The notes under the pieces were generated by a model that saw only the letters and a list, made by a program, of their open reading frames with translations, was not told the DNA's origin and searched no databases. From Janthinobacterium agaricidamnosum NBRC 102515 = DSM 9628 (GTDB lineage: Bacteria > Pseudomonadota > Gammaproteobacteria > Burkholderiales > Burkholderiaceae_D), in NCBI RefSeq assembly GCF_000723165.1, contig NZ_HG322949.1:3128782-3192781 (forward strand): 64,000 bases of DNA. The letters run 5' to 3'. Below are positions 38,062 through 52,254 of the stretch, piece after piece. The translations under genes and the position numbers were made by a program. Numbering within the stretch: position 1 is the stretch's first letter; every line of letters begins with the position of its first letter.

Positions 38062-38097
38062 CACCTGTTTCTCCACTTCATCACCAGCGAGGCCAGC

Positions 38098-38541
38098 ATG
38101 GATTATCACATCGAGGAAGGCAGTTTCACCGTTCCGGACGGCGCACAGGACCGCAGCATCAACCTGCTGATACTGAACCACGGGCCCGGCGGACTGACGC
38201 TGGTAGTGACCCGCGACCAGTTGCAGGAAGGCGAAAATCTCGACACATTCCTGACCCGGCAATTGCGTACCATGGCGTCGCAAGTCAAACATTTCCAGCA
38301 GCAAGACCGTTGCGAAGTCCATCTCGGCGCGGCGCAACTTCCCGGCCTGCAAGTGTCGACATCCTTCAGGCAAAACGGCAGCAGCATCCACCAGCGCCAG
38401 ACCGTGGCCAGCCTCGGCGGTGTGGCCGTATTGTTGTTCACGCTGAGTTGTGCATCGCCGCTGACGACGCAACAGCAAGCGTATGCCGAAGTATTGCTGG
38501 CCAGCTTCAGAGCGTCACCCGCCAGTCTGGATCAGCCTTGA
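38098..38541 (+). CDS. DUF1795 (Eag-type) effector chaperone
   Basis: A 147-aa cytoplasmic protein of the DUF1795/DcrB-like family (begins MDYHIEEGSFTVPDGAQDRS, with ILNHGPGGLTLVVTRD and a C-terminal VLLFTLSCASP strand). Eag proteins are dedicated chaperones that shield the membrane helices of prePAAR effectors and help load them on VgrG. It lies between vgrG (36 bases upstream) and the prePAAR-Rhs gene (10 bases downstream), exactly the expected place. Confidence 0.9.
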   Translation: MDYHIEEGSFTVPDGAQDRSINLLILNHGPGGLTLVVTRDQLQEGENLDTFLTRQLRTMASQVKHFQQQDRCEVHLGAAQLPGLQVSTSFRQNGSSIHQRQTVASLGGVAVLLFTLSCASPLTTQQQAYAEVLLASFRASPASLDQP

Positions 38542-38551
38542 GCAACATCCG

Positions 38552-41500
38552 ATGTGCCCGGCCGCCGCCCGCCTGACCGACCCGATCGCCCACACCTCGA
38601 TCTGGGGCAACCTTGCCAAGATGGGCGGTTCGCTGATCGTCGGCGCGCTGGTCGGCGCGGCCTTGACGATCGCCGTCAGCGCCGCCCTGGTCGCCACGCT
38701 GGCGACCGGCGGCCTGGGCCTGGTGGCGCTGCTGGCGATCGGCTTTGCGGTCGGCGCGGCCATGGAAGGCAGCGGCTTGAACGGTTTTATCGACCATCAC
38801 ATCAACCGGCTGGTCGATGCGCTGATACCGCCATCGATCGAAGGCAAGATCGTCAGCGGCTCGCCCGGCGTGCGCACCAATTCGCTGGCGGCGGCGCGCG
38901 CCGCCGCGCCCGGCCCGCTCGATGTCATCGCCTGCGCAATGCATGCGTCCGGCCCGCCGCCGATGATCGCCCAAGGTTCGGACAACGTCTTCATCGACGG
39001 CCACCCGGCGGCGCGCTCCGGCGACAAGACCACTTGCGGCGGCACCATCGCGGCCGGCTCGGACAATGTGTTCATCGGCGGCGGCACTGTCACCGTGCGC
39101 GACATCGAAGACGAACGGCCATGGTGGATCAGCGCCCTCGGCGTCGCGCTCGGCGTCGCGCTGGCGCTGTGCGGACGCGGCAAGATGAACCTGTCGGCGC
39201 TGAAATCGGCACTGCCCTGCCTGCTGATGAACTTTGGCGCAGCGATGGCCGGCAGCATGGTCGGCCACCACATCAAGAACTATATCGGCCACCCGGTGAA
39301 CGTGATTACCGGCGGCAAGGTGCTGCGCGAAACGCCCGACTTCCTCCTGCCCGGCCCGCTGGCGCTGGCATGGTGCCGTTTTTACAGCAGCCACGACCAG
39401 CGCGACGGCGGCTTGTTCGGACCTGGCTGGAGCGTGCCCTATGAAGTCGCCTTGAGCATCGAGCGCGATGCGGCGGGGCAAGTAGCCGCCCTGCACTATT
39501 GCGATTGGCAGGGACGGCGCATCACCTTTCCGCCGGTGCAGCCCGGAAGCAGCCATTACAGCACAGCCGAAGGGTATTACCTGATCTGCACCGAACTGGG
39601 ACAGTATCTGGTGGAAAGCATCGACGGCATGTACCGCGACTTCGGCCTGCCCGCCCCGCACTTTGCCGGCACGCTCAAACTGCAGCGGCTGGAAGACCGT
39701 AACGGCAACTGGCACGCGCTGCGCTACGACGCAACTGGCCGCCTGTTGCACATCAACGACGGCTGCGGACGGCGGCTGGACTTGCTGTACGACCCGTCAT
39801 TCCCCGCGCGCGTGGCAGAAGTGCGCCTGGGCAAAGGCGCGCTGGACGAGCCGGCCGAGACGCTGATGTCATACCGCTACACCGCGCAAGGCGAATTGGC
39901 GCAAGTACACGACCGCAGCGGACAAGAAGTGCGCCGTTTCGCCTACCGCCAAGGCTTGATGAGCGAACACAGCGTGCCGGGCGGCTTGTCATGCCATTAT
40001 GAATGGAGCGGCAGCGGCAACCATGCCCGCGTGGCCAGGCACTGGACCGATGATGGCGAAGGGTATGACTTCCATTACGACCTGCTGCTGCGCTATACCA
40101 GCGTGAACGACCAGCTTGGCAGACAATATCGATGGGACTGGAACGACGACCAGCAGCCGGCCGCCTATACCGATGCCGAAGGACATGTCTGGCGCTACCT
40201 GTGGGATACCAACCGGCAACTGGTGGAATGCGGCGATCCCTCCGGCGCCGTCACCCGCTGCGAATACGATGCCGCCGGCCGGCTGCTGACCGTCATCAAT
40301 GCGCTGGGCCAAATCGAAAAAACGGAATGGCATGCCAGTCTCGACGTGCCGACCGCCGAGACCGACGCGGCCGGCAACCGCTGGTCTTATGTTTATGACC
40401 AGCGCGGCAACCTGATCGCCGCCACCGACCCCTCCGCTTATGAAACCGAACAATTCCATGACAGCCGCGGCTTGCCGCACACCATACGCGACGCGCGCGG
40501 CGGCTATACACACCTGGAATGGAATGTATGTGGGCAACTGACCGGCTACACCGACTGTTCCGGCAAGCACAGCGCCTTCGCCTACGATACGCGCGGCGCG
40601 CTGGCATCCGTCACCGACGCGCTGGGCCATGCCACGCGCTACGACAACGATGCACTGGGCCGTCTGCACAGCATTGCCGCAGCGGACGGCAGCCTGCAAA
40701 GATTGCGCTACGATGCGCTCGGCCAACTGACTGCCAGCATCGATAGCGCCGGCCGTGAAACCCGATACCAGCGCAACCGGCGCGGCCTGCTGACACGCCG
40801 CACCAATCCACTCGGCCACAGCGTGCAGTTTGTCTACGACAATGCCCACCGGCTGCAACGGCTGGTCAATGAAAACGGCGAAGCCTACCGTTTTGAGTAC
40901 GACCGCAACGACCACGTCATCGCAGAAACCGGCCTCGACGGCACGATCCGCCACATCGTCCACGATGCACGCGGCTTGCCGGTGAGTGTCACCGACGCCG
41001 TCGGCGAAACCGATGCCCTGACCTTGCGCATGCAGCGCGACGCGCTGGGCCGCCTCAGCGCCAGACACGCGCGCGGCCGCGGCACCGCCTACCGCTACGA
41101 CCAGATTGGCCAGTTAGTGCAGGCCCGGCAATACAGCGACAGCGGCGGCCATCGCACCGTGCACGATCACTTAATGTTGAGCTACAGCCCGCGCGGCGAA
41201 TTGCTCAGCGAAACGGGACAGATGGGCAAGCTCAGTCATCAATACGACGCACTGGGCAACCGCAGCGCCACCACGCTGCCCGATGGACGCACTATCAACA
41301 GCCTGTATTACGGCTCCGGCCACTTGCACCAGATCAATATCGACGGCGGCATCGTCAGCGACATCGAACGCGACGACTTGCACCGCGAAGTGTCGCGCAG
41401 CCAGGGCCGTCTCGGCAGCAGCTTCGGCTATGACAGCATGGGCCGGAAAACCTGGCAGCACGCCAGCGGGGAAGCCCGGCACGATACCGTGCTGCGCAAG

Positions 41501-42829
41501 GAGTGGCGCTACGACCCGGCCGGGGAAATGACACAAAAGCGCCATTCCCGTAACGGCGTCAGCCACTATCTATACGACCCGCTCGGGCGCATTGTGAGCA
41601 GCGCCCAGGCGGCGCGGCGCGAACTGTTCAACTGGGATGCGGCGGCCAACCTGGTCGACAGCACGCAGCAAGCCGGCTACGTCAAACATAACCGCCTGCT
41701 GATGTTCGAAGACAAACGCTTCGACTACGATGTGCATGGCCGGCTGGAAAGCAAACAGATCGGCGCCCATACCGTGCAGCATTTCCGTTACGACGGCGAA
41801 CACCGCTTGCGGGAAGTCGAAACGGTGCGATCCGGCGTGCGCCAACTGGTCTATTTCGATTACGATGCGCTGGGGCGCAGGATCAAGAAAACCGACGCCT
41901 TCGGCACCACCCGCTTCCTGTGGGATGGCTTGCGCATGCTGCAGGAACAGCGCGGCGGCGATGTCGCCACCTATCTGTATGAACCCGATAGTTATGCACC
42001 GCTGGCAAGGATAGACAGCCAGGCCGCCAGCGATGCCGTCGCCGCACCTTGCACACCGTTGCCGGACGCAAACGACACGGTAGCGGGCAAGGTGTACTAT
42101 TTTCATAACGATGTTTCAGGCATGCCGGAAGAACTGAGCGGCGCCAATGGCAAGCTGGTATGGCAAGCCCAGTACAAGACCTGGGGCAACACCGTCAGCG
42201 AAACGTGGGAGCTGGCCGAACCCGGCCAGCCGGCCAGCCAACCGTTGCCGCAAAACCTGCGCTTCCAGGGCCAGTATCTGGACCGGGATACCGGGCTGCA
42301 CTACAACACGTCCAGGTTTTATGATCCGGATATCGGGAAGTTCATTTCGCCTGATCCGATTGGCTTGGCAGGCGGGGCCAATCTTTATACATATGCACCA
42401 AATCCGCTAACGTGGATAGATCCTTGGGGCTGGACGTGCAGTCCTCAAGCCAACCAGACCCAAGGAAATTCCGGACGCGATGAATTTCTGGCGCGCTTGC
42501 TCAGCTCAAAAAGATTTGAGGTGATTGACAAAGAGGTACGAGTAAATACACCTGGGAATGGTCATTACCGAAAAATGGATATTTTGATCAAAGATCGAAA
42601 AACTGGCGAGTTGCTCCACGTGGAAGTAAAAACGGGAGGTGCATATAGAAATCCAAGTCAGTTATCCAAAGATGCTGATATAGCAGTGGGGAAATCTTCT
42701 AATGGAAATACCACATGGGGTACGCGAAAAATTGATGGGAAAATTTCAGGAGGAAAAGGGTCTGACACTGGTCCGCTCAAAACAATAGAATTAACCGTCG
42801 ACCATAGAACGGGAAAAATATTAAAATAA
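38552..42829 (+). CDS. rhs: prePAAR-PAAR-Rhs T6SS effector with C-terminal PD-(D/E)xK-like nuclease
   Basis: A 1425-aa secreted toxin. The prePAAR motif AARLTDPIAH (AARxxDxxxH) is at residues 5-14, followed by hydrophobic helices (about 22-75), a PAAR domain (about 100-190, GSDNVFIDGHPAARSGDKTTC), further hydrophobic helices (about 190-240), and an Rhs/YD-repeat cage. The cage is closed by the DPIGL...DPWGW element where Rhs proteins self-cleave. The last 131 residues (from 1295; 42434-42829) are the toxin: Asp1343 in KMDILI and Glu1358-x-Lys1360 in VEVKTGG form a D-x14-ExK pattern of PD-(D/E)xK nucleases. This part is clearly AT-richer than the cage, indicating a swapped-in tip. The start giving MCPAAARL is chosen for the prePAAR motif. 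Confidence 0.93.
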   Translation: MCPAAARLTDPIAHTSIWGNLAKMGGSLIVGALVGAALTIAVSAALVATLATGGLGLVALLAIGFAVGAAMEGSGLNGFIDHHINRLVDALIPPSIEGKIVSGSPGVRTNSLAAARAAAPGPLDVIACAMHASGPPPMIAQGSDNVFIDGHPAARSGDKTTCGGTIAAGSDNVFIGGGTVTVRDIEDERPWWISALGVALGVALALCGRGKMNLSALKSALPCLLMNFGAAMAGSMVGHHIKNYIGHPVNVITGGKVLRETPDFLLPGPLALAWCRFYSSHDQRDGGLFGPGWSVPYEVALSIERDAAGQVAALHYCDWQGRRITFPPVQPGSSHYSTAEGYYLICTELGQYLVESIDGMYRDFGLPAPHFAGTLKLQRLEDRNGNWHALRYDATGRLLHINDGCGRRLDLLYDPSFPARVAEVRLGKGALDEPAETLMSYRYTAQGELAQVHDRSGQEVRRFAYRQGLMSEHSVPGGLSCHYEWSGSGNHARVARHWTDDGEGYDFHYDLLLRYTSVNDQLGRQYRWDWNDDQQPAAYTDAEGHVWRYLWDTNRQLVECGDPSGAVTRCEYDAAGRLLTVINALGQIEKTEWHASLDVPTAETDAAGNRWSYVYDQRGNLIAATDPSAYETEQFHDSRGLPHTIRDARGGYTHLEWNVCGQLTGYTDCSGKHSAFAYDTRGALASVTDALGHATRYDNDALGRLHSIAAADGSLQRLRYDALGQLTASIDSAGRETRYQRNRRGLLTRRTNPLGHSVQFVYDNAHRLQRLVNENGEAYRFEYDRNDHVIAETGLDGTIRHIVHDARGLPVSVTDAVGETDALTLRMQRDALGRLSARHARGRGTAYRYDQIGQLVQARQYSDSGGHRTVHDHLMLSYSPRGELLSETGQMGKLSHQYDALGNRSATTLPDGRTINSLYYGSGHLHQINIDGGIVSDIERDDLHREVSRSQGRLGSSFGYDSMGRKTWQHASGEARHDTVLRKEWRYDPAGEMTQKRHSRNGVSHYLYDPLGRIVSSAQAARRELFNWDAAANLVDSTQQAGYVKHNRLLMFEDKRFDYDVHGRLESKQIGAHTVQHFRYDGEHRLREVETVRSGVRQLVYFDYDALGRRIKKTDAFGTTRFLWDGLRMLQEQRGGDVATYLYEPDSYAPLARIDSQAASDAVAAPCTPLPDANDTVAGKVYYFHNDVSGMPEELSGANGKLVWQAQYKTWGNTVSETWELAEPGQPASQPLPQNLRFQGQYLDRDTGLHYNTSRFYDPDIGKFISPDPIGLAGGANLYTYAPNPLTWIDPWGWTCSPQANQTQGNSGRDEFLARLLSSKRFEVIDKEVRVNTPGNGHYRKMDILIKDRKTGELLHVEVKTGGAYRNPSQLSKDADIAVGKSSNGNTTWGTRKIDGKISGGKGSDTGPLKTIELTVDHRTGKILK

Positions 42830-42838
42830 TGGTATAAC

Positions 42839-43513
42839 ATGTCAAAAACATCAATAGCAAAAGCAATTCTTCAAGAACTAACACGGGAAATGGAAAACGT
42901 CGGGTATTGCTTCGACAAAGAAACATCATCAGTGGAACTTAATATTTTCACAAAAGAAAATGCATTACAAAAAACTGTATTGAGCTATTCACTTAACGGA
43001 AGAGGAAATTACAAAGCATTTGGGCAAATAAAAATTATATATAAAGATTTATCGGAAATAATGAAGGATATTTTCAAAAACAGTAAATTATCAGAGGATT
43101 ACGACTATCAAAAATCCACAGCATATTGGGAAGGCGTAGGAATCTATTCCACGATAGGAAGATTTTCCAATGATAAAACCATATACCATTGCAACTCAAA
43201 AGAAACTTCTATCGATTTCGCAAAAAACTACGCAAGGCAAATAAAATCGGAAGAAGAAAATTTTATTAATCCGCATCTGAACCAAAAAACGACAATTGAA
43301 GAGTTCATGAAACCGATGCACCATTTTTGGCCAGGTGACTTGAGGGCTTTCCTGGAACATTTAGTAGGGTATGCAATAAAAACATCTGATACAAATCTAC
43401 TCAAATATGCATTTCAAAAAGCAGAGGATGTATCAGAAAAACTTGTCCCACAAGCACGTTCAACAGATTTCACCGCGGAGTTGAAAAATGCGACAAGAAA
43501 CATCATGCTTTAA
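42839..43513 (+). CDS. Putative immunity protein for the Rhs toxin
   Basis: A 224-aa hydrophilic protein beginning 9 bases after the toxin stop codon. It has no signal peptide or membrane segment, as expected for immunity to a cytoplasmic nuclease. It is strongly AT-rich compared with the flanking genome and matches the base composition of the toxin tip, so the two probably arrived together. I recognise no family. The C-terminal region (about residues 155-210, FLEHLVGYAIKTSD ... AFQKAEDVSEKL) looks helical. The function is inferred from position and composition only. Confidence 0.75.
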   Translation: MSKTSIAKAILQELTREMENVGYCFDKETSSVELNIFTKENALQKTVLSYSLNGRGNYKAFGQIKIIYKDLSEIMKDIFKNSKLSEDYDYQKSTAYWEGVGIYSTIGRFSNDKTIYHCNSKETSIDFAKNYARQIKSEEENFINPHLNQKTTIEEFMKPMHHFWPGDLRAFLEHLVGYAIKTSDTNLLKYAFQKAEDVSEKLVPQARSTDFTAELKNATRNIML

Positions 43514-44238
43514 TTTAAAATATTAATTATTAAAATAGAAAATCATCCAGCTCGACAAGACAGGAGGCGTGGAATTAAACAACTGACAAGCACCAGCAAT
43601 GCTGGCGATCTCTTTTATATCCCGGCAATCAACAAGGAAGGCGACGAAGGCGTTGTGATGGCCCGCCATATTGAGTTGATCCAGCCGAATCTGGGGTATT
43701 TGATCGAGAAATCGTCGCCCTCGCAGTCGCCATGGATCGACGTTTCAAGCGACGCAAACAAAAACGCCTCGCAGCATGCGGCAAGCTGACTTGTAAAGCG
43801 AGGCAACGCCGCCATCGGCATCATCCCACGGCTGCTTGCCGACATCGAGACGGCTGTGGACATGGTTTATCGTCCATTGAGCGTCGCTCTTCAACGCCGC
43901 CAGCTCATCCAATCGAGCGGCACGGAACTGCCCAGGAAATGATTTCACGGTATCCCAGCCCTGATACGGCTTGACCGCAACAGACCCGCCTATTGCATGG
44001 TGACTGGCTGCACAGTCCCATGCTTAGCGGGTGCACCACTTTCCACAATGATGAGCAAATAATATTCTTTTTACATTATTCATTTCTGTTGCAAGCATAG
44101 GCGAAAAAAGATGAAAACTATTTGCAAATATCCGTAAATCAACGTCAACGGATGCGGCAAGCGGCGCGTTTCTGGACCTGAGACGGGAATGATCCCGCTT
44201 GAACATACATCTTTGAATCACTTCTTGAGGACTGAACC
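43514..44238. other. 725-base region with decayed gene remnants
   Basis: Between the immunity gene and the first Asr-like gene. It holds a plus-strand fragment at 43574-43789 and a minus-strand open stretch (about 43745-44010, ending VASLYKSACRMLRGVFVCVA) with no convincing start. It then turns AT-rich near 44040-44140. This is typical debris downstream of Rhs loci. I see no complete gene. Confidence 0.5.
43574..43789 (+). pseudogene. Remnant resembling the N-terminus of an immunity protein
   Basis: A 71-codon open stretch ending at TGA 43787-43789, containing GDLFYIPAINKEGDEGVVMARHI. A strong AGGAGG lies 6 bases before an ATT codon at 43574, where an ATG would be expected (ATT-AAA-CAA-CTG). 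The GDxFxIP opening recalls Imm26-type immunity proteins, but this is a weak resemblance by eye. It may be an orphan immunity gene whose start was mutated and whose 3' end was lost. Confidence 0.35.
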
Positions 44239-44550
44239 ATGAAAAAAGTAATCGCTACTCTGATCGCTGGCTTGTTCGCAACTGCAGCATTCGCGCAATC
44301 GCCTGCAGCCTCTGTGCCGGCCAAAGCCGAAGCAAAACATACGAAAGAAGTGGCCAAAGCAGACGCAAAAGAAAGCAAGGCCGTCGCTAAAGCCGACGCC
44401 AAGGAAGCCGCGGCAACCGCCGATGCAAAAGCAGACGTCGCCAGCGCCAAAGCCGACGCCAAGGAAGCCAAAACCAAGGCCCACCACAAGGCAGCAAAAG
44501 CCAAGGCCAAGGCCGACGAAGCCAAAGCTGAAGCAACCCCCACCAAGTAA
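44239..44550 (+). CDS. Asr-like small exported Ala/Lys-rich protein, copy 1
   Basis: A 103-aa protein with a Sec signal peptide (MKKVIATLIAGLFATAAFA, cleaved before QSP). The mature part consists almost wholly of Ala, Lys, Asp, Glu and some His in KADAKE-type repeats, predicted highly charged and unstructured or helical. It resembles acid-shock protein Asr of enterobacteria in size, export and composition, though not by alignable sequence that I can prove. It is the most diverged of the seven copies; its leader keeps only one GTAAA half site and GTCAACGG. Ribosome binding site GAGGA. Terminator at 44568. Confidence 0.85.
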   Translation: MKKVIATLIAGLFATAAFAQSPAASVPAKAEAKHTKEVAKADAKESKAVAKADAKEAAATADAKADVASAKADAKEAKTKAHHKAAKAKAKADEAKAEATPTK

Positions 44551-44567
44551 TCCGGCCCTACTCTGGG

Positions 44568-44593
44568 AAAAGACAGGTTCGCCTGTCTTTTTT
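44568..44593 (+). terminator. Terminator of Asr-like copy 1
   Basis: AAAAGACAGG-TTCG-CCTGTCTTTTTT. Hairpins of the same stem, AGACAGG/CCTGTCT, recur after copies 2, 3, 4, 5 and 7, so the terminator belongs to the repeated module. Confidence 0.9.
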
Positions 44594-44654
44594 CGTTTAC
44601 GCTCACGCCCCCATCGGCACTCACCTGCGCCATAGGCATGACAACAAGGCAAAT

Positions 44655-44669
44655 GTAAGCGTTTGTAAA
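44655..44669 (+). promoter_or_regulatory. GTAAG-N5-GTAAA direct repeat before Asr-like copy 2
   Basis: GTAAGCGTTTGTAAA, two GTAAR blocks with 10-bp period, followed by GTCAACGG. It matches the CpxR-type consensus GTAAA-N5-GTAAA with one mismatch, and in reverse gives spaced TTACA blocks as in RstA-like sites. The same element precedes copies 3-7. Confidence 0.6.
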
Positions 44670-44764
44670 GCCCGTCAACGGACCAGTTCGCCATTGCGTT
44701 TTTTGCTCAGTGATACGGGAATCATCCCCACTAACAGATTAAACAACCACTTGAGGATTGCACC

Positions 44765-45148
44765 ATGAAAAAAGTTATCGCTACCCTGATCGCCGGCCTG
44801 TTCGCTTCCGCTGCATTCGCTCAAGCTCCGGCTCCAGCCGCTTCCGCGCCAGTGGCGATGAAAGCCCAAACTCTGCCGCTCAAGGATGTCGCCGAGCCTG
44901 GCGCAACGAAACTGCCTGGCGCCAAGCAAGTCAAAGCGCATCACGCTGCGAAAAAGCCAAGGCCAAAACTGACGACGTCAAGGCCGACGCAGCACCAGCG
45001 GCAGCACCTGCCGCCAAGTAAGCCTCAAAACGGTTTCCATAAAAAGACAGGTTCGCCTGTCTTTTTTTTCGCTGTCATTCTGCCGGCCTTGGGCGCCGCT
45101 GCGAATGCCGCAAAACATGACGACAACGGCAAATGTAAGCGTTTGTAA
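44765..45148 (+). pseudogene. Asr-like copy 2, frameshifted
   Basis: The first 65 or so residues follow the family (same signal peptide, then QAPAPAASAPVAMKAQ...VKAHHAAK). At the A-run near 44951-44955 (GCGAAAAAGCC) the frame is lost. Adding one A restores KAKAKTDDVKADAAPAAAPAAK and a stop at 45019-45021, the normal family ending. As written, the frame reads on through its own terminator (45041-45069) to 45148, giving an atypical C-terminus. It is either a real 1-base slippage mutation, phase variation at the A-run, or a sequencing error. Confidence 0.75.
45041..45069 (+). terminator. Terminator of Asr-like copy 2
   Basis: AAAAAGACAGG-TTCG-CCTGTC followed by eight T residues. It lies inside the frameshifted reading frame, which supports the normal stop being at 45021. 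Confidence 0.9.
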
Positions 45149-45149
45149 A
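45135..45149 (+). promoter_or_regulatory. GTAAG-N5-GTAAA direct repeat before Asr-like copy 3
   Basis: GTAAGCGTTTGTAAA, identical to the element before copy 2, followed by GTCAACGG at nearly the same spacing and by the conserved GCGTTTTTTGCTCAGTGAC leader block. Confidence 0.6.
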
Positions 45150-45244
45150 GGCGGTCAACGGATCACCTAGTCCACGCGTTTTTTGCTCAGTGACACGGGA
45201 ATCATCCCCACTAACAGATTAAACAACCACTTGAGGATTGCACC

Positions 45245-45475
45245 ATGAAAAAAGTTATCGCTACCCTGATCGCCGGCCTGTTCGCTTCCGCTGCATTCGC
45301 TCAAGCTCCAGCGCCTGCCGCTTCGGCTCCTGCGGCAGCACCGGCAGCCGCCAGCGCAGAAGCTTCGGCGCCAGCAAAAGCCGTTAAAAAATCGCACCAC
45401 AAAGCGAAAAAAGCAAAAAAAGCCGCTGAAGCCAAAACCGAAGCACCAGCAGCAGAAGCCGCCCCAGCCAAGTAA
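45245..45475 (+). CDS. Asr-like small exported Ala/Lys/His-rich protein, copy 3
   Basis: A 76-aa protein: signal peptide (MKKVIATLIAGLFASAAFA), an Ala/Pro-rich linker, then a basic block KKSHHKAKKAKKAAEAK and an acidic/Ala tail ending AAPAK. Differs from copies 5 and 7 at a single residue (Val for Ala before KKSHH). The short, exported, Lys/His-rich form is like processed Asr, thought to buffer or protect the periplasm in acid. Ribosome binding site TTGAGGATTGCACC before the ATG is conserved in the module. Confidence 0.88.
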   Translation: MKKVIATLIAGLFASAAFAQAPAPAASAPAAAPAAASAEASAPAKAVKKSHHKAKKAKKAAEAKTEAPAAEAAPAK

Positions 45476-45494
45476 TCCGGGCTGCATCCATGTC

Positions 45495-45524
45495 AAAAAA
45501 AGACAGGCTTGCCTGTCTTTTTTT
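45495..45524 (+). terminator. Terminator of Asr-like copy 3
   Basis: AAAAAAAGACAGG-CTTG-CCTGTCTTTTTTT, the same stem as in the other copies with a CTTG loop. Confidence 0.9.
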
Positions 45525-45581
45525 ACGTCTGCAACTTTACTGATCGGCGTACTTGGCGCCCATCGTTTCAAGCATGCGCAC

Positions 45582-46478
45582 TCAATATGCCAGTTGCGCC
45601 GCGAGGTCGATCAGCGCGCGCAATTTGGGCTGGTGCTGGGTGCGCACCGGAAAATACAGATACAGCCCCGGCGTGGCCGGGATGTACGATTCCAGCACCC
45701 GCTCCAGCCGCCCGGCGGCGACATCGCCGGCGATTTCCATGTCCGCCATATACGCCAGCCCCAACCCCTGGCGCGCGAAATGCGCGATCAGCGTGGTGTC
45801 GTTGACGATCAATCCACCCGACGTTTCGACGTGGAAGGCCTGCCCTTGCTCGATGAATTTCCAGCGCGGCAGCGTGCCCGACGTCAGGAAGCGGTAGCGT
45901 ATGGTTTCGTGCCGCACCAGTTGTTCCGGCGTGGCGGGCCGGCCGTGCGCCGCGAAATAGGATGGCGCGCCCACCACCGACCAGGACAAGTCCGGCGTCA
46001 GGCGTATCGCCACCATGTCTTGCGCCACCGACTGGCCAAGCCGGATGCCGGCGTCGTAGCCTTGCTCGACCAGGTCGACGGTGCCGTCGTCGAGCGAAAT
46101 ATCGAGTTTGACGTCCGGGCAGTTTTGCCGCATGCGGCTGGCCAGCGGCTGCATCACCAGCGCCCCCAAGGCGCGCGGCACAGTCAGCCGCAAGGTGCCG
46201 GACGGCCGGTCGCGGTAAGCGTTCAGGGCGGCGAAGGCGTCGCCGATCTGGGCCGCCGCCGGACGCATGCCGGCGAACAGGCTCAGTCCCGCTTCGGTCA
46301 GCGCGACGTTGCGCGTGGTGCGCTGGAACAGGATCACGCCGTGGCGCTGTTCCAGCAATTTGACGGCCTTGCTGACGGCGGTCGGCGTGATGCCGAGACG
46401 CGCCGCGGCGGTGGTAAAACTTTTTAGCTCGGCTACCGCGAGGAACGCTTCGACGCCATCGAATGCACTGGTTTTCAT
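45582..46478 (-). CDS. LysR family transcriptional regulator
   Basis: A 298-aa LysR-type regulator. The winged helix-turn-helix covers residues 5-62 (FLAVAELKSFTTAAARLGIT, AVSKAVKLLEQRHGVILFQR) and the effector domain follows (LRLTVPRALGALVMQPL, GYDAGIRLGQSVAQDMV). It resembles regulators that pair with divergent oxidoreductase genes, but its divergent neighbour here is an Asr-like gene 231 bases away, and no obvious metabolic target is adjacent. The start giving MKTSAFDGVE is chosen. Confidence 0.9.
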   Translation of the reverse strand: MKTSAFDGVEAFLAVAELKSFTTAAARLGITPTAVSKAVKLLEQRHGVILFQRTTRNVALTEAGLSLFAGMRPAAAQIGDAFAALNAYRDRPSGTLRLTVPRALGALVMQPLASRMRQNCPDVKLDISLDDGTVDLVEQGYDAGIRLGQSVAQDMVAIRLTPDLSWSVVGAPSYFAAHGRPATPEQLVRHETIRYRFLTSGTLPRWKFIEQGQAFHVETSGGLIVNDTTLIAHFARQGLGLAYMADMEIAGDVAAGRLERVLESYIPATPGLYLYFPVRTQHQPKLRALIDLAAQLAY

Positions 46479-46597
46479 GATGTGACTGTAGGTTGGCCGT
46501 GAATTGATGGGGAACTTTTTGATGGTGTACTTTACATTGGCGGCCAATATAGCAGAACCCGCTTTGTCGATGCCGCTACCGCTGCCGACAGCGCAAT

Positions 46598-46612
46598 GTA
46601 AGTGTTTGTAAT
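46598..46612 (+). promoter_or_regulatory. GTAAG-N5-GTAAT direct repeat before Asr-like copy 4
   Basis: GTAAGTGTTTGTAAT followed by GTCAACG and the GCGTTTTTTGCTCAGTGACACGG block, as in the other copies. Confidence 0.55.
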
Positions 46613-46709
46613 CGCCGTCAACGCCAGCGTCCGCCACGGCGTTTTTTGCTCAGTGACACGGGAATCATCCCAGCACAAACCGACACCCCAACCACTTGAG
46701 GATTGCACC

Positions 46710-47026
46710 ATGAAAAAAGTTATCGCCACCCTGATCGCCGGCCTGTTCGCTTCCGCTGCATTCGCTCAAGCACCAGCGCCCGCCGCTTCCGCTCCGGTCG
46801 CCATGAAAGCCGAAGCCAAGCATACCAAGGAAGCCGTCAAGGCGGATGCCAAAGCGGCGACCGCCGTGCCGGCAGCCAGCGCAGAAGCCAAGACCGAAAA
46901 GACCGATAAGGTCAAAGCACATCACGACGTAAAAAAGAGCAAGGTCAACGCCGGTGAAGTGAAGGCGGTAGCCGCGTCGGCAACGCCGGCGGCATCGGCG
47001 CCAGCCACTAAGAGCCTATCCCAGTA
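46710..47026 (+). CDS. Asr-like small exported protein, copy 4, stop codon supplied by a MITE
   Basis: A 105-aa protein of the longer subfamily shared with copy 6: signal peptide, PVAMKAE, KADAKAATAVPAASAEAK, KAHHDVKKSKVNAGEVKAVA and a tail ASAPATK. In copy 6 the next codon is the TAA stop. Here the MITE (47012-47169) is inserted within that stop, so the frame runs five codons into the element's inverted repeat (SLSQ) and ends at the TAG in CCCAGTAG. The protein is thus nearly intact, but its terminator (47195) is now 170 bases downstream. Confidence 0.85.
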
Positions 47027-47169
47027 GATGAATACGCCCTCTTCTGGCGCCCCTCAGGAACGGGGACTGCGTTGATCGTCGTCGCGTGGCTCGCCACGCT
47101 TGCTCCTCACGCCTGGTCCGCGCTCCTGATGCGCGGCCAGTAGACGACGCTCACTACTGGGATAGGCTC
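47012..47169. mobile_element. 158-bp MITE, copy 2, inserted at the end of Asr-like copy 4
   Basis: Same length and perfect terminal inverted repeats as copy 1 (16289-16446), with about eight base differences by eye. Flanked by TAA (47009-47011 and 47170-47172). Removing the element and one TAA restores a normal family ending, so the insertion is recent. It carries no reading frame of its own. Confidence 0.92.
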
Positions 47170-47194
47170 TAAGTAAGCGCCGTTTCGCAGTTCC

Positions 47195-47222
47195 AAAAAG
47201 ACAGGTACGCCTGTCTTTTTTT
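47195..47222 (+). terminator. Terminator of Asr-like copy 4
   Basis: AAAAAGACAGG-TACG-CCTGTC followed by T residues. It has been separated from its gene by the MITE insertion. Confidence 0.88.
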
Positions 47223-47274
47223 ATTGCTGCGGCAACAACGGCAAAAAATGATCGACCGGCACTGAAAATTTAAT

Positions 47275-47288
47275 TGACTGATCAGTCA
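47275..47288. promoter_or_regulatory. Probable TetR operator before the TetR gene
   Basis: Perfect 14-bp palindrome TGACTGATCAGTCA, about 50 bases before the TetR start. It shares its TGACTG/CAGTCA arms with the palindrome before the downstream SDR gene at 47974-47991. Confidence 0.65.
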
Positions 47289-47339
47289 CTCTTGATATAT
47301 CATGCGAACTCGATAGTGAATGCAATGAGTGAGGTAACC

Positions 47340-47906
47340 ATGTCCCGGCCCAAAAGTGAAGACAAGCGCAACGCGATCATGGCGGCGGCGATCCGCGTGA
47401 TCGCCAGCCAGGGCCTGGGCGCGCCGACCGCGACTATCGCGAAAGAAGCCGGCGTGGCGAATGGCTCGCTGTTCAATTATTTTGACACCAAGGCCGAGCT
47501 GTTCAGCCAGTTGTATGTGGAACTGAAACAGGAAGTGATGAGCAGCGCGATGCAGCAACTGCCGGCCGGCGCCGACCTGCGCGCACAAACGCTGCACGTG
47601 TGGACGCGCTGGATGCAATGGGCCACCAGCTGGCCCGATAAACGCAAGGCGATGGCGCAACTGTCCATGTCGGACGACATCAGCCCGGCCAGCCGGGCCG
47701 CCGGCCAGCAAGCGTCGATGGGAATCGTCGACTTGATACAGCGTACCTGCGCCGGCGGCCCGCTGCGCGACCATCCGCTGCCGTTCATTTTTGCGGTGGT
47801 CAGTTCGCTGTCGGGCGCGACCATGGATTACATGATTGCCCATCCGGCGCAAGCACAATTGCATTGCGATACAGGGTTCGCCATGTTGTGGCGGGCGCTG
47901 ACCTGA
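47340..47906 (+). CDS. TetR/AcrR family transcriptional regulator
   Basis: A 188-aa repressor with an N-terminal helix-turn-helix (IRVIASQGLGAPTATIAKEAGVANGSLFNYF, about residues 15-45) and an all-helical ligand domain. The start giving MSRPKSEDKR has a GAGGT ribosome binding site; upstream in-frame codons overlap the operator and are rejected. Two related palindromes indicate that it controls itself and the SDR reductase immediately downstream. A terminator at 47939 separates the two genes. Confidence 0.92.
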   Translation: MSRPKSEDKRNAIMAAAIRVIASQGLGAPTATIAKEAGVANGSLFNYFDTKAELFSQLYVELKQEVMSSAMQQLPAGADLRAQTLHVWTRWMQWATSWPDKRKAMAQLSMSDDISPASRAAGQQASMGIVDLIQRTCAGGPLRDHPLPFIFAVVSSLSGATMDYMIAHPAQAQLHCDTGFAMLWRALT

Positions 47907-47938
47907 TGCCGTCAGCTGGTTCACCTTGGAAATCAGAC

Positions 47939-47961
47939 GCCGCGCCTGTGCGGCTTTTTTT
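47939..47961 (+). terminator. Terminator of the TetR gene
   Basis: GCCGC-GCCTGT-GCGGC followed by seven T residues, 32 bases after the TetR stop. Confidence 0.75.
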
Positions 47962-47973
47962 GAAGTACGATAA

Positions 47974-47991
47974 TGACTGTCCAGACAGTCA
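47974..47991. promoter_or_regulatory. Probable TetR operator before the SDR gene
   Basis: TGACTGTCCAGACAGTCA, arms TGACTGTC/GACAGTCA around two bases, about 20 bases before the SDR start. Related to the palindrome at 47275-47288. Confidence 0.65.
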
Positions 47992-48010
47992 CAAATATGG
48001 GAGCATGACC

Positions 48011-49030
48011 ATGTCAGATACCGTTTTAGTGACCGGAGGCAGTGGCTTTGTCGCCGGCTGGTGTATCGCCGAACTGTTAAAGCGCGGCTACACCGTGCGC
48101 ACTACCTTGCGCAGCCTGTCCAGGGAAGCCGCGATCCGCGCCATGCTGGTCCCGGTCGTCGACGCCGGCGACAAGCTGACCTTCCACGGCGCAGACCTGA
48201 CCAGCGACGCTGGCTGGGATGCCGCGATGGCCGGCTGCGACTACGTGCTGCATGTCGCCTCGCCGCTCGGCGGCGATGGCACAAAAGATCCCGATGAATT
48301 GATCATCCCGGCCCGCGACGGCACGCTGCGGGTGTTGCGCGCCGCCACCAGGGCCGGCGTCAAGCGAGTCGTCATGACGTCGTCCACGGCTGCCTCGTGT
48401 CCGCCGCAGCGCGGCCCCGACAGCTTTAACGACGAAACCGTCTGGAGCAACCCGGACGACCGCAACCTGCCGCCCTACCGCAAATCGAAAATACTGTCCG
48501 AAATGGCGGCCTGGGATTTCATGCGGACGCATGGCGGCGCCACCACGCTGACCACCGTGCTGGCCAGCGCCGTGTTCGGCCCGCTGCTGAGCGCCGACAA
48601 CCTCGGTTCGGTACAAGTCATCGGCCGCCTGTTGAGCGGCAAGATGCCGGCCTATCCAAGGTTGGGCTTCAATGTCGTCGATGTGCGCGACCTGGCCGAT
48701 GCGCATATCCGCGCCATGACGGCGCCGGAAGCGGCCGGCCAGCGCTTTATCGCGGCCAGCGATTACCTGTGGATGAAAGATATCGCCGGCACCCTGCGCA
48801 GCAGGCTGGGCACGCAGGCGGCCAAGGTGCCGACCCGCCGCATGCCGGACTTCGCGCTGCGCCTGCTGTCGCTGTTCGATCCGTCGCTGAAAGTGGTGAC
48901 GCCCGGCCTGGGCCGCAAGCACAGCTTCAACGCGGCCAAGGCGCGCCGCGTGCTGGGCTGGACGCCGCGTCCTGCCGCCACCACCGTGCTCGATTGCGCC
49001 AACAGCCTGATCGAGAAGAACGCGGTGTAG
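48011..49030 (+). CDS. NAD(P)-dependent epimerase/reductase (extended SDR, dihydroflavonol reductase-like)
   Basis: A 339-aa extended SDR. The Rossmann motif VTGGSGFVAGW is at residues 7-17. The catalytic tyrosine and lysine are in PPYRKSKILSE, with the serine in VMTSSTAAS. It belongs to the dihydroflavonol-4-reductase-like group that reduces aldehydes or ketones; the natural substrate is unknown. The second ATG (MSDTVL) is chosen for spacing from GGGAG. Regulated, by position and operators, by the preceding TetR protein. Confidence 0.9.
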   Translation: MSDTVLVTGGSGFVAGWCIAELLKRGYTVRTTLRSLSREAAIRAMLVPVVDAGDKLTFHGADLTSDAGWDAAMAGCDYVLHVASPLGGDGTKDPDELIIPARDGTLRVLRAATRAGVKRVVMTSSTAASCPPQRGPDSFNDETVWSNPDDRNLPPYRKSKILSEMAAWDFMRTHGGATTLTTVLASAVFGPLLSADNLGSVQVIGRLLSGKMPAYPRLGFNVVDVRDLADAHIRAMTAPEAAGQRFIAASDYLWMKDIAGTLRSRLGTQAAKVPTRRMPDFALRLLSLFDPSLKVVTPGLGRKHSFNAAKARRVLGWTPRPAATTVLDCANSLIEKNAV

Positions 49031-49061
49031 AGCGCCGGGTTCGCGTGCGCGGTATTGGCGC

Positions 49062-49144
49062 GGCGAGCAGCCGATGATGCACTGGCCGACCGGCTGTGGC
49101 GTCTCAGCAAACAGTTGAACGACCTCGAATACGATATAAATTAA
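49062..49144 (+). pseudogene. Possible C-terminal remnant of an oxidoreductase gene
   Basis: After the SDR stop, an open frame reads DDALADRLWRLSKQLNDLEY and then ends in TAA. It resembles the last residues of a short-chain dehydrogenase and has no start of its own. The call is weak. Confidence 0.25.
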
Positions 49145-49150
49145 TCAAAT

Positions 49151-49165
49151 GTAAGCAATTGTAAG
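49151..49165 (+). promoter_or_regulatory. GTAAG-N5-GTAAG direct repeat before Asr-like copy 5
   Basis: GTAAGCAATTGTAAG followed by GTCAACG and the conserved leader block. Both half sites are kept although the spacer differs from the other copies, which points to selection on the half sites. Confidence 0.58.
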
Positions 49166-49260
49166 TGGCGTCAACGCTCAGGCAATCGACCGCGTTTTTT
49201 GCTCAGTGACACGGGAATTATCCCCACTAACAGATTAAACAACCACTTGAGGATTGCACC

Positions 49261-49491
49261 ATGAAAAAAGTTATCGCTACCCTGATCGCCGGCCTGTTCG
49301 CTTCCGCTGCATTCGCTCAAGCTCCAGCACCTGCCGCTTCGGCTCCTGCGGCAGCGCCGGCAGCCGCCAGCGCAGAAGCTTCGGCGCCAGCAAAAGCCGC
49401 TAAAAAATCGCACCACAAAGCGAAAAAAGCAAAAAAAGCCGCTGAAGCCAAAACCGAAGCGCCAGCAGCTGAAGCCGCTCCAGCCAAGTAA
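49261..49491 (+). CDS. Asr-like small exported Ala/Lys/His-rich protein, copy 5
   Basis: A 76-aa protein identical in sequence to copy 7 and one residue different from copy 3: signal peptide, Ala/Pro linker, KKSHHKAKKAKKAAEAK block and an acidic tail. Near-identity at the DNA level, including the leader from TTGAGGATTGCACC upstream, suggests recent duplication or gene conversion. Confidence 0.88.
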   Translation: MKKVIATLIAGLFASAAFAQAPAPAASAPAAAPAAASAEASAPAKAAKKSHHKAKKAKKAAEAKTEAPAAEAAPAK

Positions 49492-49509
49492 TTCAGGGCT
49501 GCACCGATG

Positions 49510-49537
49510 AAAAAAGACAGGTTCGCCTGTCTTTTTT
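49510..49537 (+). terminator. Terminator of Asr-like copy 5
   Basis: AAAAAAGACAGG-TTCG-CCTGTCTTTTTT hairpin 18 bases after the stop. Confidence 0.9.
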
Positions 49538-49571
49538 CATTTCCGGACGGCGTTTCAGTCATACGTCACAC

Positions 49572-49982
49572 CTAAACAGCTCCGGCTTTTTCCTGCGACC
49601 GCTGCACCGCCGAATCGATAAACGAACAATTCCTGGTGATCGCCTTGTCCATCTGTTCGTCATCCGGCGCAAGCGACGCATCCAGGTCGGGCCCCAGGTC
49701 GGCCTTCTCGCCCATCGTCAGCCGTATCGCGATCGAGGCAAACAAGCCTTGCGAGCCTTCTTCCTTTAACTGCGCGGTCAACCGCGCCTTGCCGGCAGCA
49801 AGATTCGTGCCTTTTGGCAAACGCGCTTGGCATGCGGCTGACTCTCTGTGCCCTGGTTCCGGTCTGGAGTTGCCGTGGCTGCCTCCGGCCGGCGGCTTGC
49901 TGGCGGCCGGCGCTTCCCTGCTGCTGTATTTCAGCCGTTCCGATACCAGCACAGTGCCGCTGGCGGTATGGCGGCGCCTCAA
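49572..49982 (-). CDS. Hypothetical protein, uncertain
   Basis: A 136-aa frame directly after gluconokinase on the same strand, starting at an ATG that overlaps the gluconokinase end. The C-terminal half (KARLTAQLKEEGSQGLFASI to the end) has codon use and composition of a real gene. The first half is Pro/Ser/Gly-rich and doubtful. I recognise no family. It may be the tail of a decayed gene fused by chance to an open upstream stretch. Confidence 0.35.
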   Translation of the reverse strand: MRRRHTASGTVLVSERLKYSSREAPAASKPPAGGSHGNSRPEPGHRESAACQARLPKGTNLAAGKARLTAQLKEEGSQGLFASIAIRLTMGEKADLGPDLDASLAPDDEQMDKAITRNCSFIDSAVQRSQEKAGAV

Positions 49983-50485
49983 CCGCCCCAGGCAATTATT
50001 TCCGCAATCAACCGATCCGGCTGCTGCTCCAGGTCCAGCGTGATGCCGGTTTCATCCGATTGCAACGGTTGCAGCGTGGCCAACTGGCTGTCGAGCAAGT
50101 TCAGCGGCATGAAATGGCCCGCCCTGCCCGTCATGCGCGCGGCAAGGACATCACGTGCGCCGGCCAGGTGCGCGAAACCGAGCGCCGCATCGCCGCCGCG
50201 CAGCACATCGCGGTAACACCGCTTCAACGCCGAGCAAGACAGCACCAGTCCTGATCCATTGATACGCGCGGCGGCGATTTTCGCCTGCAGCGTCAACAGC
50301 CAGCCAGCCCGGTCGGCATCGGTCAGGGGAATCCCCGCCGACATCTTCGCCACATTGCCGGCCGGATGAAAATCGTCGCCCTCGATAAACGGCAGGTCCA
50401 GCGCGGCCGCCAGGCGGCGCCCGATTTCACTCTTGCCGCAAGCACTGACGCCCATCACGACCCAGCTCTTTTTCTGTTGTTGCAT
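49979..50485 (-). CDS. gntK: Gluconokinase
   Basis: Phosphorylates D-gluconate to 6-phosphogluconate, feeding the Entner-Doudoroff or pentose phosphate route. The 168-aa product has the Walker A loop GVSACGKSEIG (about residues 12-22; most homologues have GVSGSGKS), then EGDDFHPAGNVAKMSAGIPLTDADRAGW, diagnostic of GntK, and LSCSALKRCYRD. No gluconate transporter is adjacent. It lies between Asr-like copies 5 and 6 on the opposite strand. Confidence 0.94.
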   Translation of the reverse strand: MQQQKKSWVVMGVSACGKSEIGRRLAAALDLPFIEGDDFHPAGNVAKMSAGIPLTDADRAGWLLTLQAKIAAARINGSGLVLSCSALKRCYRDVLRGGDAALGFAHLAGARDVLAARMTGRAGHFMPLNLLDSQLATLQPLQSDETGITLDLEQQPDRLIAEIIAWGG

Positions 50486-50524
50486 ACGTATTCCTTACCT
50501 GTTCTTTTGCATCTGCACGCAGAT

Positions 50525-50539
50525 GTAAGCGTTTGTAAT
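50525..50539 (+). promoter_or_regulatory. GTAAG-N5-GTAAT direct repeat before Asr-like copy 6
   Basis: GTAAGCGTTTGTAAT followed by GTCAACGG and the GCGTTTTTTGCTCAG leader block. It lies just upstream of the divergent gluconokinase start. Confidence 0.58.
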
Positions 50540-50652
50540 GTCCGTCAACGGTCCCGTCCGCCAGCGCGTTTTTTGCTCAGAGACACGGGAATTCAGCCAC
50601 AGCAGAATTATCCCAGCACTCACACATTAAACAACCACTTGAGGATTGCACC

Positions 50653-50967
50653 ATGAAAAAAGTTATCGCCACCCTGATCGCCGGCCTGTTCGCTTCCGCT
50701 GCATTCGCTCAAGCTCCAGCGCCAGCCGCGTCGGCCCCCGCCGCTTCCGCTCCGGTCGCCATGAAAGCCGAAGTCAAGCACAGCAAGGAAGTCGTCAAGG
50801 CGGATGCCAAAGCGGCGACCGCCGTGCCGGCAGCCAGCGCGGAAGCCAAGACCGCCGACACAGTCAAAGCGCATCACGGCGTGAAAAAGAGCAAAGTCAA
50901 CGCCGGTGAAGTGAAAGCGGTAGCCGCGTCGGCAACGCCGGCGGCATCGGCGCCAGCCACCAAGTAA
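50653..50967 (+). CDS. Asr-like small exported protein, copy 6
   Basis: A 104-aa protein of the longer subfamily (with copy 4): signal peptide, duplicated APAAS linker, PVAMKAEVKHSKE, KADAKAATAVPAASAEAK, KAHHGVKKSKVNAGEVKAVA and ending ASAPATK-stop. It shows what the end of copy 4 was before the MITE insertion. It is the only copy without a following AGACAGG hairpin: the leader of copy 7 begins about 20 bases after its stop, so the two may be read through. Confidence 0.87.
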   Translation: MKKVIATLIAGLFASAAFAQAPAPAASAPAASAPVAMKAEVKHSKEVVKADAKAATAVPAASAEAKTADTVKAHHGVKKSKVNAGEVKAVAASATPAASAPATK

Positions 50968-50989
50968 GCGCCGCTTCGCAGCGGCAAAT

Positions 50990-51004
50990 GTAAGCCTTTG
51001 TAAA
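50990..51004 (+). promoter_or_regulatory. GTAAG-N5-GTAAA direct repeat before Asr-like copy 7
   Basis: GTAAGCCTTTGTAAA followed by GTCAACGG. It begins only 23 bases after the copy 6 stop codon. Confidence 0.58.
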
Positions 51005-51110
51005 GGTCGTCAACGGATCACCTGCTGCACGCGTTTTTTGCTCAGTGATACGGACTCAGTTACACCGATTCAATGCACTACCCAACATTCAACCACGTGA
51101 GGATTACAAC

Positions 51111-51341
51111 ATGAAAAAAGTTATCGCTACCCTGATCGCCGGCCTGTTCGCTTCCGCTGCATTCGCTCAAGCTCCAGCACCTGCCGCTTCGGCTCCTGCG
51201 GCAGCACCGGCAGCCGCCAGCGCGGAAGCTTCGGCGCCAGCAAAAGCCGCTAAAAAATCGCACCACAAAGCGAAAAAAGCAAAAAAAGCCGCTGAAGCCA
51301 AAACCGAAGCGCCAGCAGCCGAAGCCGCTCCAGCCAAGTAA
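51111..51341 (+). CDS. Asr-like small exported Ala/Lys/His-rich protein, copy 7
   Basis: A 76-aa protein identical to copy 5. The leader between the GTAAG repeat and the ATG has diverged more than in copies 3 and 5 (GTGAGGATTACAAC before the ATG), while the coding part has not, which fits gene conversion of the coding segment. An in-frame ATG 66 bases upstream is rejected because the signal peptide starts at MKKVIATL. Confidence 0.88.
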   Translation: MKKVIATLIAGLFASAAFAQAPAPAASAPAAAPAAASAEASAPAKAAKKSHHKAKKAKKAAEAKTEAPAAEAAPAK

Positions 51342-51360
51342 TCCGGGCTGCATCCATGTC

Positions 51361-51390
51361 AAAAAAAGACAGGCTTGCCTGTCTTTTTTT
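51361..51390 (+). terminator. Terminator of Asr-like copy 7
   Basis: AAAAAAAGACAGG-CTTG-CCTGTC followed by eight T residues, 19 bases after the stop. Confidence 0.9.
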
Positions 51391-51448
51391 TGAGGCGCCG
51401 GTGGCGCACATCGTCCCGCGCCTCCCTGACGCGCAAGCAAAGGCAGAC

Positions 51449-51604
51449 ATGCAAAAACATATCATCATATTGCTGGCCAGCCTGGCTTTTCTTTACGCCT
51501 GCGACACGTTTGTCCAACACACCGAACCGCCTCTGTATGCCGGCCTGGACGATCCCGGGCTGAGCCTGCCGCTGGCGGCAGACCCCGAAGACGCCTTTAA
51601 CTAA
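51449..51604 (+). CDS. Small putative lipoprotein
   Basis: A 51-aa protein with a lipoprotein signal: MQKHIIILLASLAFLYAC, with a lipobox-like LYAC and the cysteine at residue 18, followed by a 33-residue Pro/Leu/Asp-rich mature part. No family recognised. It ends 5 bases before the convergent fasciclin gene stop. The ribosome binding site is weak (AAGGCAG). Confidence 0.55.
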   Translation: MQKHIIILLASLAFLYACDTFVQHTEPPLYAGLDDPGLSLPLAADPEDAFN

Positions 51605-51609
51605 AGCCT

Positions 51610-52167
51610 TTATTTCGGTATCAGCACGCTGTCGATGACATTGATCACGCCATTCGACTGATAGACATCGTAGGTGCTGATATTGGCGCTATTGCCGCTC
51701 TCATCCATGACCGCGATATTGTGCATGCCGTTCATCGCGAACATCAGCTTGCCGCCGCTGGCGGTCGGCAGCGTCGCTTTGCCGTCATGCAGCTTGATTT
51801 CCTTGGCCAGCGCTGCGAAATCATATTTTCCCGGCACCACGTGATAGGTCAGGATCTTGGTCAGGGTCGCCTTGTTTTCAGGCTTGACCAGGCTGTCGAC
51901 AGTGCCGGCCGGCAATTTCGCGAACGCGGCATTGGTCGGTGCGAACACCGTGTAGGGTCCCTTGCCTTTCAGCGTGTCGACCAGTCCGGCTGCCTTGACC
52001 GCCGCCACCAGCGTGGTGTGATCGGCCGAGTTGACGGCATTGTCGACGATATCCTTGCTCGGCAACATACTCTGCCCGCCGACCATGACGCTGATGTCCG
52101 CGCCGAAGCTGGCGCCCGCGGCCATGATGGATGCGGCAAACAACATTGCTGGGGTAAAGGTACGCAT
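51610..52167 (-). CDS. Exported fasciclin (FAS1) domain protein
   Basis: A 185-aa periplasmic or surface protein: signal peptide to about residue 23 (MAAGASFGA), then a single FAS1 domain with both signature boxes, [15 protein letters not shown] (H1) and the ending [13 protein letters not shown] (H2), with the YH motif in [14 protein letters not shown]1 domains mediate adhesion or protein-protein contacts. Single gene, convergent with the small lipoprotein. Confidence 0.93.
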
Positions 52168-52254
52168 GATTATCTCCTGAATGACTGCCTGTGCATGATT
52201 GCAGGGCTATTTACGCACTCGGATGGCGGATCGGATTCAATTATTTTTCAAGGC

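Follow-up and report, generated by a model that had tools for sequence, protein, structure and literature searches.

Small exported basic proteins from an old Janthinobacterium gene array, with a promoter core of putative ECF-sigma type before each copy

Why does a single chromosomal region carry seven small genes whose exported products start with nearly the same signal peptide? The question is raised by a 64,000-nucleotide stretch of Janthinobacterium agaricidamnosum NBRC 102515 = DSM 9628 (contig NZ_HG322949.1, positions 3,128,782 to 3,192,781; the whole stretch is hereafter the window, and positions are counted from its first letter), in which seven plus-strand open reading frames (ORFs) between 44239 and 51341 encode the signal peptide MKKVIATLIAGLFA(S/T)AAFAQ. 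As an answer, held with about even confidence, we propose that these genes form an array that is old in Janthinobacterium and encodes small, basic, exported proteins, each gene with its own expression cassette; the array would be induced by envelope stress and would supply a polycation dose in the manner of the acid-shock protein Asr.

A degenerate pattern of the signal-peptide DNA matched seven sites in the whole 5.95-Mb genome, all of them in the array, and the reversed-pattern control matched none, in agreement with the original prediction of seven genes sharing a signal peptide. Other parts of that prediction also stood: copies 5 and 7 encode identical 76-residue proteins from which copy 3 departs at one residue; copy 2 is broken, being frameshifted relative to its paralogues with a frame that continues through its terminator; and the mature parts fall into distinct types, between which 34-46% of the aligned DNA positions differ. 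In the window, the gaps between copies hold LysR, TetR, SDR and gluconokinase genes, named by reading the sequence and with no model.

All seven copies are preceded by the core GTCAAC-N17-CGTTT, and the array accounts for seven of the nine matches to this core in the genome; the reversed pattern matched 14 times, which places the two non-array matches at chance level. For the Acinetobacter extracytoplasmic function (ECF) sigma factor SigAb, PMC12153292 reports a -35 element GTCAAC and a -10 element CGTT defined by mutagenesis, and a promoter scan with 16-18 bp between them; GTCAAC and CGTT at such a distance are found at each of the seven copies. Among 192 distinct promoter stretches, the spacer was 17 bp in 175 and 16 bp in 17, with 15 and 18 allowed and never observed; this recovery demanded the exact core, so that its bases are fixed by construction and the spacer length alone was free to vary. 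At loci found by their protein alone, the exact core lay within 220 bp upstream in 57 of 78 cases, against 9 of 3366 random stretches, and 10 of the 21 loci lacking it encode a different, 155-159-residue Duganella protein. The core thus resembles SigAb promoters in its -35, its -10 and its spacer of 16-17 bp, but differs in its targets, in an additional phased TGTAA repeat and in that no self-regulated sigma gene was found. We consider it a putative ECF-sigma-type promoter.

The additional repeat gives the composite box TGTAA-N5-TGTAA-N5-GTCAAC, which stands upstream of copies 2-7; with up to 3 mismatches allowed, the genome has no further match. At up to 2 mismatches it was detected in 53 of 195 genomes of the family (2 control hits in all), while in the order it was found in 5 of 300 genomes, 2 of these among the 290 outside the family (control, 6 in 300). 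Among the matches listed, 30 of 32 boxes precede a short protein with the array signal peptide, the other two preceding an OmpR-type regulator and nothing recognisable. The TGTAA repeat is present in 160 of 187 promoters (control, 3 of 3637) and missing from 27, including that of window copy 1. The distance from its second half to GTCAAC is 10 bp in 133 promoters, 11 in 11, 19 in 7 and 20 in 9, and no further distances occur within 70 bp. A repeat displaced in steps of full helical turns relative to an unchanging core is consistent with an activator that binds upstream of a core specific to a sigma factor. The repeat is a candidate site for a second regulator.

The same arrangement could also be read as an ordinary sigma-70 promoter served by an OmpR/PhoB-family regulator on three 10-bp repeats (TGTAA, TGTAA, GTCAA), GTCAAC then being the third site and not a -35 element. 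Three elements at 10-bp spacing do occur in 133 of the 187 promoters, and on the opposite strand TGTAA-N5-TGTAA reads TACA-N6-TACA, which has the half-site spacing of the RstA box (consensus taken from PMC4117788). Array box and RstA/OmpR-family boxes are in this respect alike, both being direct repeats with a 10-bp period. Such an RstA-type box lies 117 bp before the ATG of Escherichia coli asr, a gene that according to PMC9026648 uses RstA and PhoB sites, the PhoB site covering the -35. By contrast, the array box has the orientation opposite to that of E. coli asr, moves by whole turns and comes with no conserved RstA orthologue. Furthermore, the core (GTCAAC-N16/17-CGTT) persists without TGTAA repeats in loci of Burkholderiaceae, Variovorax and Oxalicibacterium, and is also present where the repeats sit one whole turn further off (16 of 187). 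These points make the sigma-70 alternative rather unlikely, although it is the rival that survives best.

The candidate regulators of the genome bear on the same choice. The RstA-like response regulator L194 (G000:C1:5350581-5351270) has RstA as its best model, at 199.9 bits for a cut-off of 330; in the 194 family genomes other than this one it lacks a close orthologue (best match 184 bits, against 497 to itself), so that it cannot be the family-wide regulator and was ruled out as such; the gene that follows it reads as a histidine kinase. The box was found at 0 of 26 response-regulator loci of the genome. Both results count against the sigma-70 alternative. Elsewhere, in another genus, a TGTAA-type box with 2 mismatches stands at position 204 of locus L040, some 66 bp ahead of the gene for an OmpR-type response regulator; this is a point in favour of the sigma-70 alternative, and it may be chance.

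Downstream of the core, the leader tends to fold. Directly after CGTT, 56 non-redundant leaders gave a mean z of -1.58 against dinucleotide shuffles (36 below -1 and 7 above 0), whereas the comparison region near the start codon gave +0.38 (71 stretches, 5 below -1). In 41 of the 56 leaders the hairpin loop is centred on positions 15-18, and the stems vary (CGGGA/TCCCG, CCTCAAG/CTTGAGG, CAGGGGA/TCTCCTG, CACG/CGTG and others), changing between genera while the place stays the same; pairing that persists although the stem sequence is replaced suggests a structure under selection, which may shield the mRNA at its 5' end. Within the array, the hairpin is lost in copy 7 and interrupted in copy 6, and an Rfam search of 43500-52200 (E <= 0.5) was negative. 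At the other end of the unit, the AGACAGG/CCTGTCT terminator that had been described as common to most copies can be read after six of the seven genes; it is absent at copy 6, and a consensus terminator scanner lists only that of copy 4 in the array (15 terminators in total, for 12.8 expected). The shared expression module proposed earlier is upheld and extends further than the window, as promoter core, phased repeat and 5' hairpin occur across Oxalobacteraceae and the core also occurs in Burkholderiaceae and Variovorax.

How old is this arrangement? A profile of the window copies, a search called for by the original prediction, matched 39 of 40 Janthinobacterium genomes, usually at 4-8 places each (8 in the window genome). 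Synteny was examined in 20 regions from 19 relative genomes, and copies were counted in 17 of them (three having been excluded beforehand) with a regular expression, which makes the copy counts lower bounds: at least five copies in 13 regions, four in 2, three in 1 and one in 1. In 11 of the 13 five-copy regions the successive copies measure about 103, 113, 110, 116 and 87 residues, with shorter forms in L164 and L165. These arrays share one location, next to FAS1 and RND efflux genes. Between genomes, first copies differ at 1.70 of 45 signal-peptide bases, and from the other copies of their own genome at 6.95, which marks copy 1 as an orthologue of its own, old and conserved within the genus; the window's copy 1 differs from the first copies of other genomes at 6.29 of 45. 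The earlier description of copy 1 as a diverged duplicate is accordingly withdrawn. Copies 2 and up are nearly as different within a genome (4.96 of 45) as between genomes (5.59), which argues against a general concerted evolution.

The window genome departs from this pattern, since the signal peptides of its copies 2-7 differ from one another at 0.53 of 45 bases and from those of other genomes at 6.5. Over 60 positions of signal-peptide DNA, copies 2-7 show 0-1 differences among themselves and 9-10 to copy 1. In the mature DNA, 3-6 of 171 positions differ among copies 3, 5 and 7, and 19 of 240 between copies 4 and 6. The leader, described earlier as common to most copies, is near-identical in copies 2, 3 and 5 (1-2 differences over the 69 columns held in common with copy 5 or 7), but not in copy 7 (19-20 of 69 from these three) nor in copy 6, where 16 additional bases interrupt it. 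Aligning the loci, as had been suggested for conversion tracts, revealed a mosaic in copies 3, 5 and 7: copy 3 goes with copy 5 in the leader (1 of 69, copy 7 being at 19-20), copy 5 with copy 7 in the coding part (3 of 171, vs 6), and copy 3 with copy 7 between stop and terminator. Such conflicting closest partners point to conversion or recombination between copies, either of which would leave such a mosaic. The predicted repeated duplication and conversion hence describes copies 2-7 of this genome but not the array itself: by these comparisons, the array is old and genus-wide in Janthinobacterium, and its recent part is a re-expansion or homogenisation of copies 2-7.

Cargo between the copies also changes by lineage. 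The TetR, SDR and gluconokinase genes of the window had no match in 98 fetched loci, where LysR had two distant ones (43 and 25%); the inter-copy gaps of relatives hold other genes, e.g. serine hydrolases, TonB receptors and LytTR-type two-component genes, as read from the sequence. This variable cargo, together with the frameshift of copy 2, the insertion in copy 4, the missing terminator of copy 6 and the damaged leaders of copies 6 and 7, would suit extra copies that are largely neutral, i.e. recombining, cargo-gathering and decaying repeats with selection acting mainly on copy 1. We regard this as improbable, as the boxes are intact in copies 2-7 and the cores in all seven, the protein of copies 3, 5 and 7 is almost unchanged, and several copies have been retained throughout the genus.

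Beyond the genus, a broader family profile matched 166 of 195 family genomes at E <= 1e-4, an upper estimate given the low complexity of the profile. Several isolated forms were encountered. In the relative G212 (L166, about 5400-6460), a copy resembling window copies 4 and 6 stands with its own promoter about 20 kb from the array, in the opposite orientation. Duganella loci (L090, L092, L094, L097, L101, L103, L106, L107, L110 and L112) carry the same signal peptide on a different 155-159-residue Ala/Lys-rich protein, without the core promoter upstream. In Caballeronia (L141-L147 and L149), the protein is a short His/Lys/Ser-rich form, MNKLIAALVAGLFATAAFAQ...HKKSHKSSKK, and an apparent second GTCAAC-N17-CGTT lies about 190 bp further upstream.

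As for the proteins themselves, the mature part has a pI above 9 in 184 of 187 unique family members and lacks Cys and aromatic residues in 182 of 187, a composition that makes disorder probable. Long forms contain an 11-residue repeat (mean z 3.42, above 2 in 50 of 76; z 5.6 in copy 1), reminiscent of the Ala/Lys/Glu-rich repeat of Group 3 late embryogenesis abundant (LEA) proteins, and the family could accordingly be imagined as protectants against drying or cold and not acid. However, the repeat is not found in copies 3 and 6 and is weak in copy 4; a raised hydrophobic moment is seen at 160 degrees (z 3.74) but not clearly at the helical angle (z 0.6-0.7), which gives no support to a LEA-type amphipathic helix; and unlike Group 3 LEA proteins these are exported, with no Pfam match in the proteins scanned. 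Because the peak sits away from the helical angle, the LEA reading stays weak, and we judge it doubtful.

The comparison with Asr, made in the original prediction, holds for composition, export and small size, the array proteins having a signal peptide and a small, basic, Lys/Ala/His-rich mature part, but not at the level of family models. The Pfam Asr model (PF06392) had no match in the genome nor in the proteins scanned, and the NCBIfam model (NF033636) reached at best 14.9 bits among 15 proteins, against a cut-off of 50 and a score of 102 for E. coli Asr. In 500 trials against E. coli Asr, shuffled sequences attained the real score in 3.6-4.2% of cases for copies 3, 5 and 7 and in 14.6-49% for copies 1, 4 and 6, and any similarity beyond composition appears at most marginal. 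With no Asr model above its cut-off, membership in the Asr family was rejected. It is thus very improbable, and already disfavoured, that these are true Asr orthologues forming a betaproteobacterial branch of the acid-shock family: size, signal peptide, composition, the weak NCBIfam hits (13.6 and 14.9 bits, among the best for copies 3, 5 and 7 and a Caballeronia member) and a shuffle level of about 4% for these three copies would agree with it, but the scores remain far under the cut-off and copies 1, 4 and 6 do not beat their own shuffles. The phrase 'acid shock protein' was not found together with Janthinobacterium, Massilia or Duganella among the literature matches listed.

Analogy of function is a different matter from descent. 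For E. coli Asr, the best analogue, PMC10746267 describes a disordered chaperone with a supporting role in outer-membrane integrity, to which about 2% of the ribosome reads belong at pH 4.4. Array proteins and Asr are alike in being small, exported and very basic, with an Ala/Lys-rich mature part devoid of Cys and aromatics and a promoter that would be strong and regulated; they differ in the lower His content, the other type of promoter core, the several linked copies and the absence of a model match above cut-off in the array. That the proteins work like Asr, as abundant basic periplasmic protectants, is our best guess.

In the proposed stress-induced array, each gene would have a cassette made of a TGTAA-N5-TGTAA activator site, an ECF-type promoter, a 5' hairpin, a ribosome-binding site, a signal peptide and, in six of the seven, a strong terminator. 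Envelope stress, possibly acid, would lead to joint induction by an envelope-stress sigma factor and the activator, each gene acting as its own transcription unit (copies 6 and 7 being perhaps co-read), and hairpin, ribosome-binding site and terminator would together favour a high yield. Once in the periplasm, the disordered polycation would buffer, bind polyanions or stop aggregation, as Asr does in E. coli. In this genome, the recombination that recently re-expanded or homogenised copies 2-7 has left little variation between promoter and signal peptide, and the mature parts are of several types. More copies would give more dose and varied mature parts maybe varied clients; the array as a dosage or diversity device is plausible. 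The sequence comparisons establish the cassette, its conservation, the synteny and the homogenisation, whereas sigma type, second regulator, disorder, stress induction and function are proposed. More tentatively, the promoter and signal-peptide cassette (ECF sigma plus phased activator) may be a plug-in unit for one family of exported disordered polycations, preserved by selection and recombination while the mature parts are exchanged and diversify, within a private, dosage-tunable envelope-protection regulon of Oxalobacteraceae.

Several observations weigh against this proposal. ECF factors usually self-regulate, and the core was found within 700 bp upstream at 0 of 26 sigma or helix-turn-helix loci of the genome, though in some of these loci the chosen start codon may lie too far inside the gene. 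Nor does any sigma factor or activator regularly accompany the array genes, the 98 loci yielding one weak ECF-like hit and one response regulator. Not all seven copies are sound, copy 2 being frameshifted and copies 6 and 7 having damaged leaders. Finally, the signals described for SigAb in PMC12153292 are copper, not acid.

The analysis nonetheless provides a concrete promoter, an ECF-type core with a phased repeat, for a protein family present by the broad profile in most Oxalobacteraceae sampled; of the members scanned, none is claimed by a Pfam or NCBIfam model. The promoter could help to find the missing sigma factor, and the array raises the question whether bacteria increase the dose of a periplasmic polycation in this way outside enterobacterial Asr.

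Table 1. Features of the array and its surroundings in window coordinates; each copy begins at its start ATG, and terminators (AGACAGG/CCTGTCT followed by a T run in copy 1) were located by reading the sequence.
Feature	Position	Strand	Remark
156-bp element	16290-16445		further site
Core promoter, copy 1	44144..44171	+	upstream repeat degenerate
Copy 1	44239..44550	+	103 residues; first orthologue of the array, conserved
Terminator, copy 1	44568..44593	+	
Box and core, copy 2	44654..44701	+	TGTAA-N5-TGTAA box
Copy 2	44765..45148	+	out of the paralogues' frame; reads through its own terminator
Terminator, copy 2	45041..45069	+	
Box and core, copy 3	45134..45181	+	
Copy 3	45245..45475	+	76 residues
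Terminator, copy 3	45495..45524	+	
Box and core, copy 4	46597..46644	+	
Copy 4	46710..47027	+	105 residues; end within mobile element
MITE-like mobile element	47013..47168		156 bp, within the end of copy 4; CTAAG repeat on each side (5-bp duplication)
Terminator, copy 4	47195..47222	+	displaced from gene by inserted element; also listed by scanner
Box and core, copy 5	49150..49197	+	
Copy 5	49261..49491	+	76 residues; same protein as copy 7
Terminator, copy 5	49510..49537	+	
Box and core, copy 6	50524..50571	+	16 extra bases interrupt the leader behind
Copy 6	50653..50967	+	104 residues; without own terminator
Box and core, copy 7	50989..51036	+	leader diverged, hairpin lost
Copy 7	51111..51341	+	76 residues
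Terminator, copy 7	51361..51391	+	
FAS1-type gene	51610..52167	-	named from sequence; array border in 17 of 20 relative regions fetched
156-bp element	63985 to window end		further site

The insertion in copy 4 resembles a miniature inverted-repeat transposable element (MITE) and supplies the final codons and the stop of that gene. The 156-bp element, with ends AGCCTATCCCAGTAG, has at least 41 near full-length copies in the genome at 93% identity or more. Ahead of the array, the region 36500-43513 contains VgrG-like and Rhs genes (38483-42829), with a C-terminal end that is variable, and behind them a small gene (42839-43513); read from the sequence, this set resembles an Rhs effector of type VI secretion together with its immunity gene.

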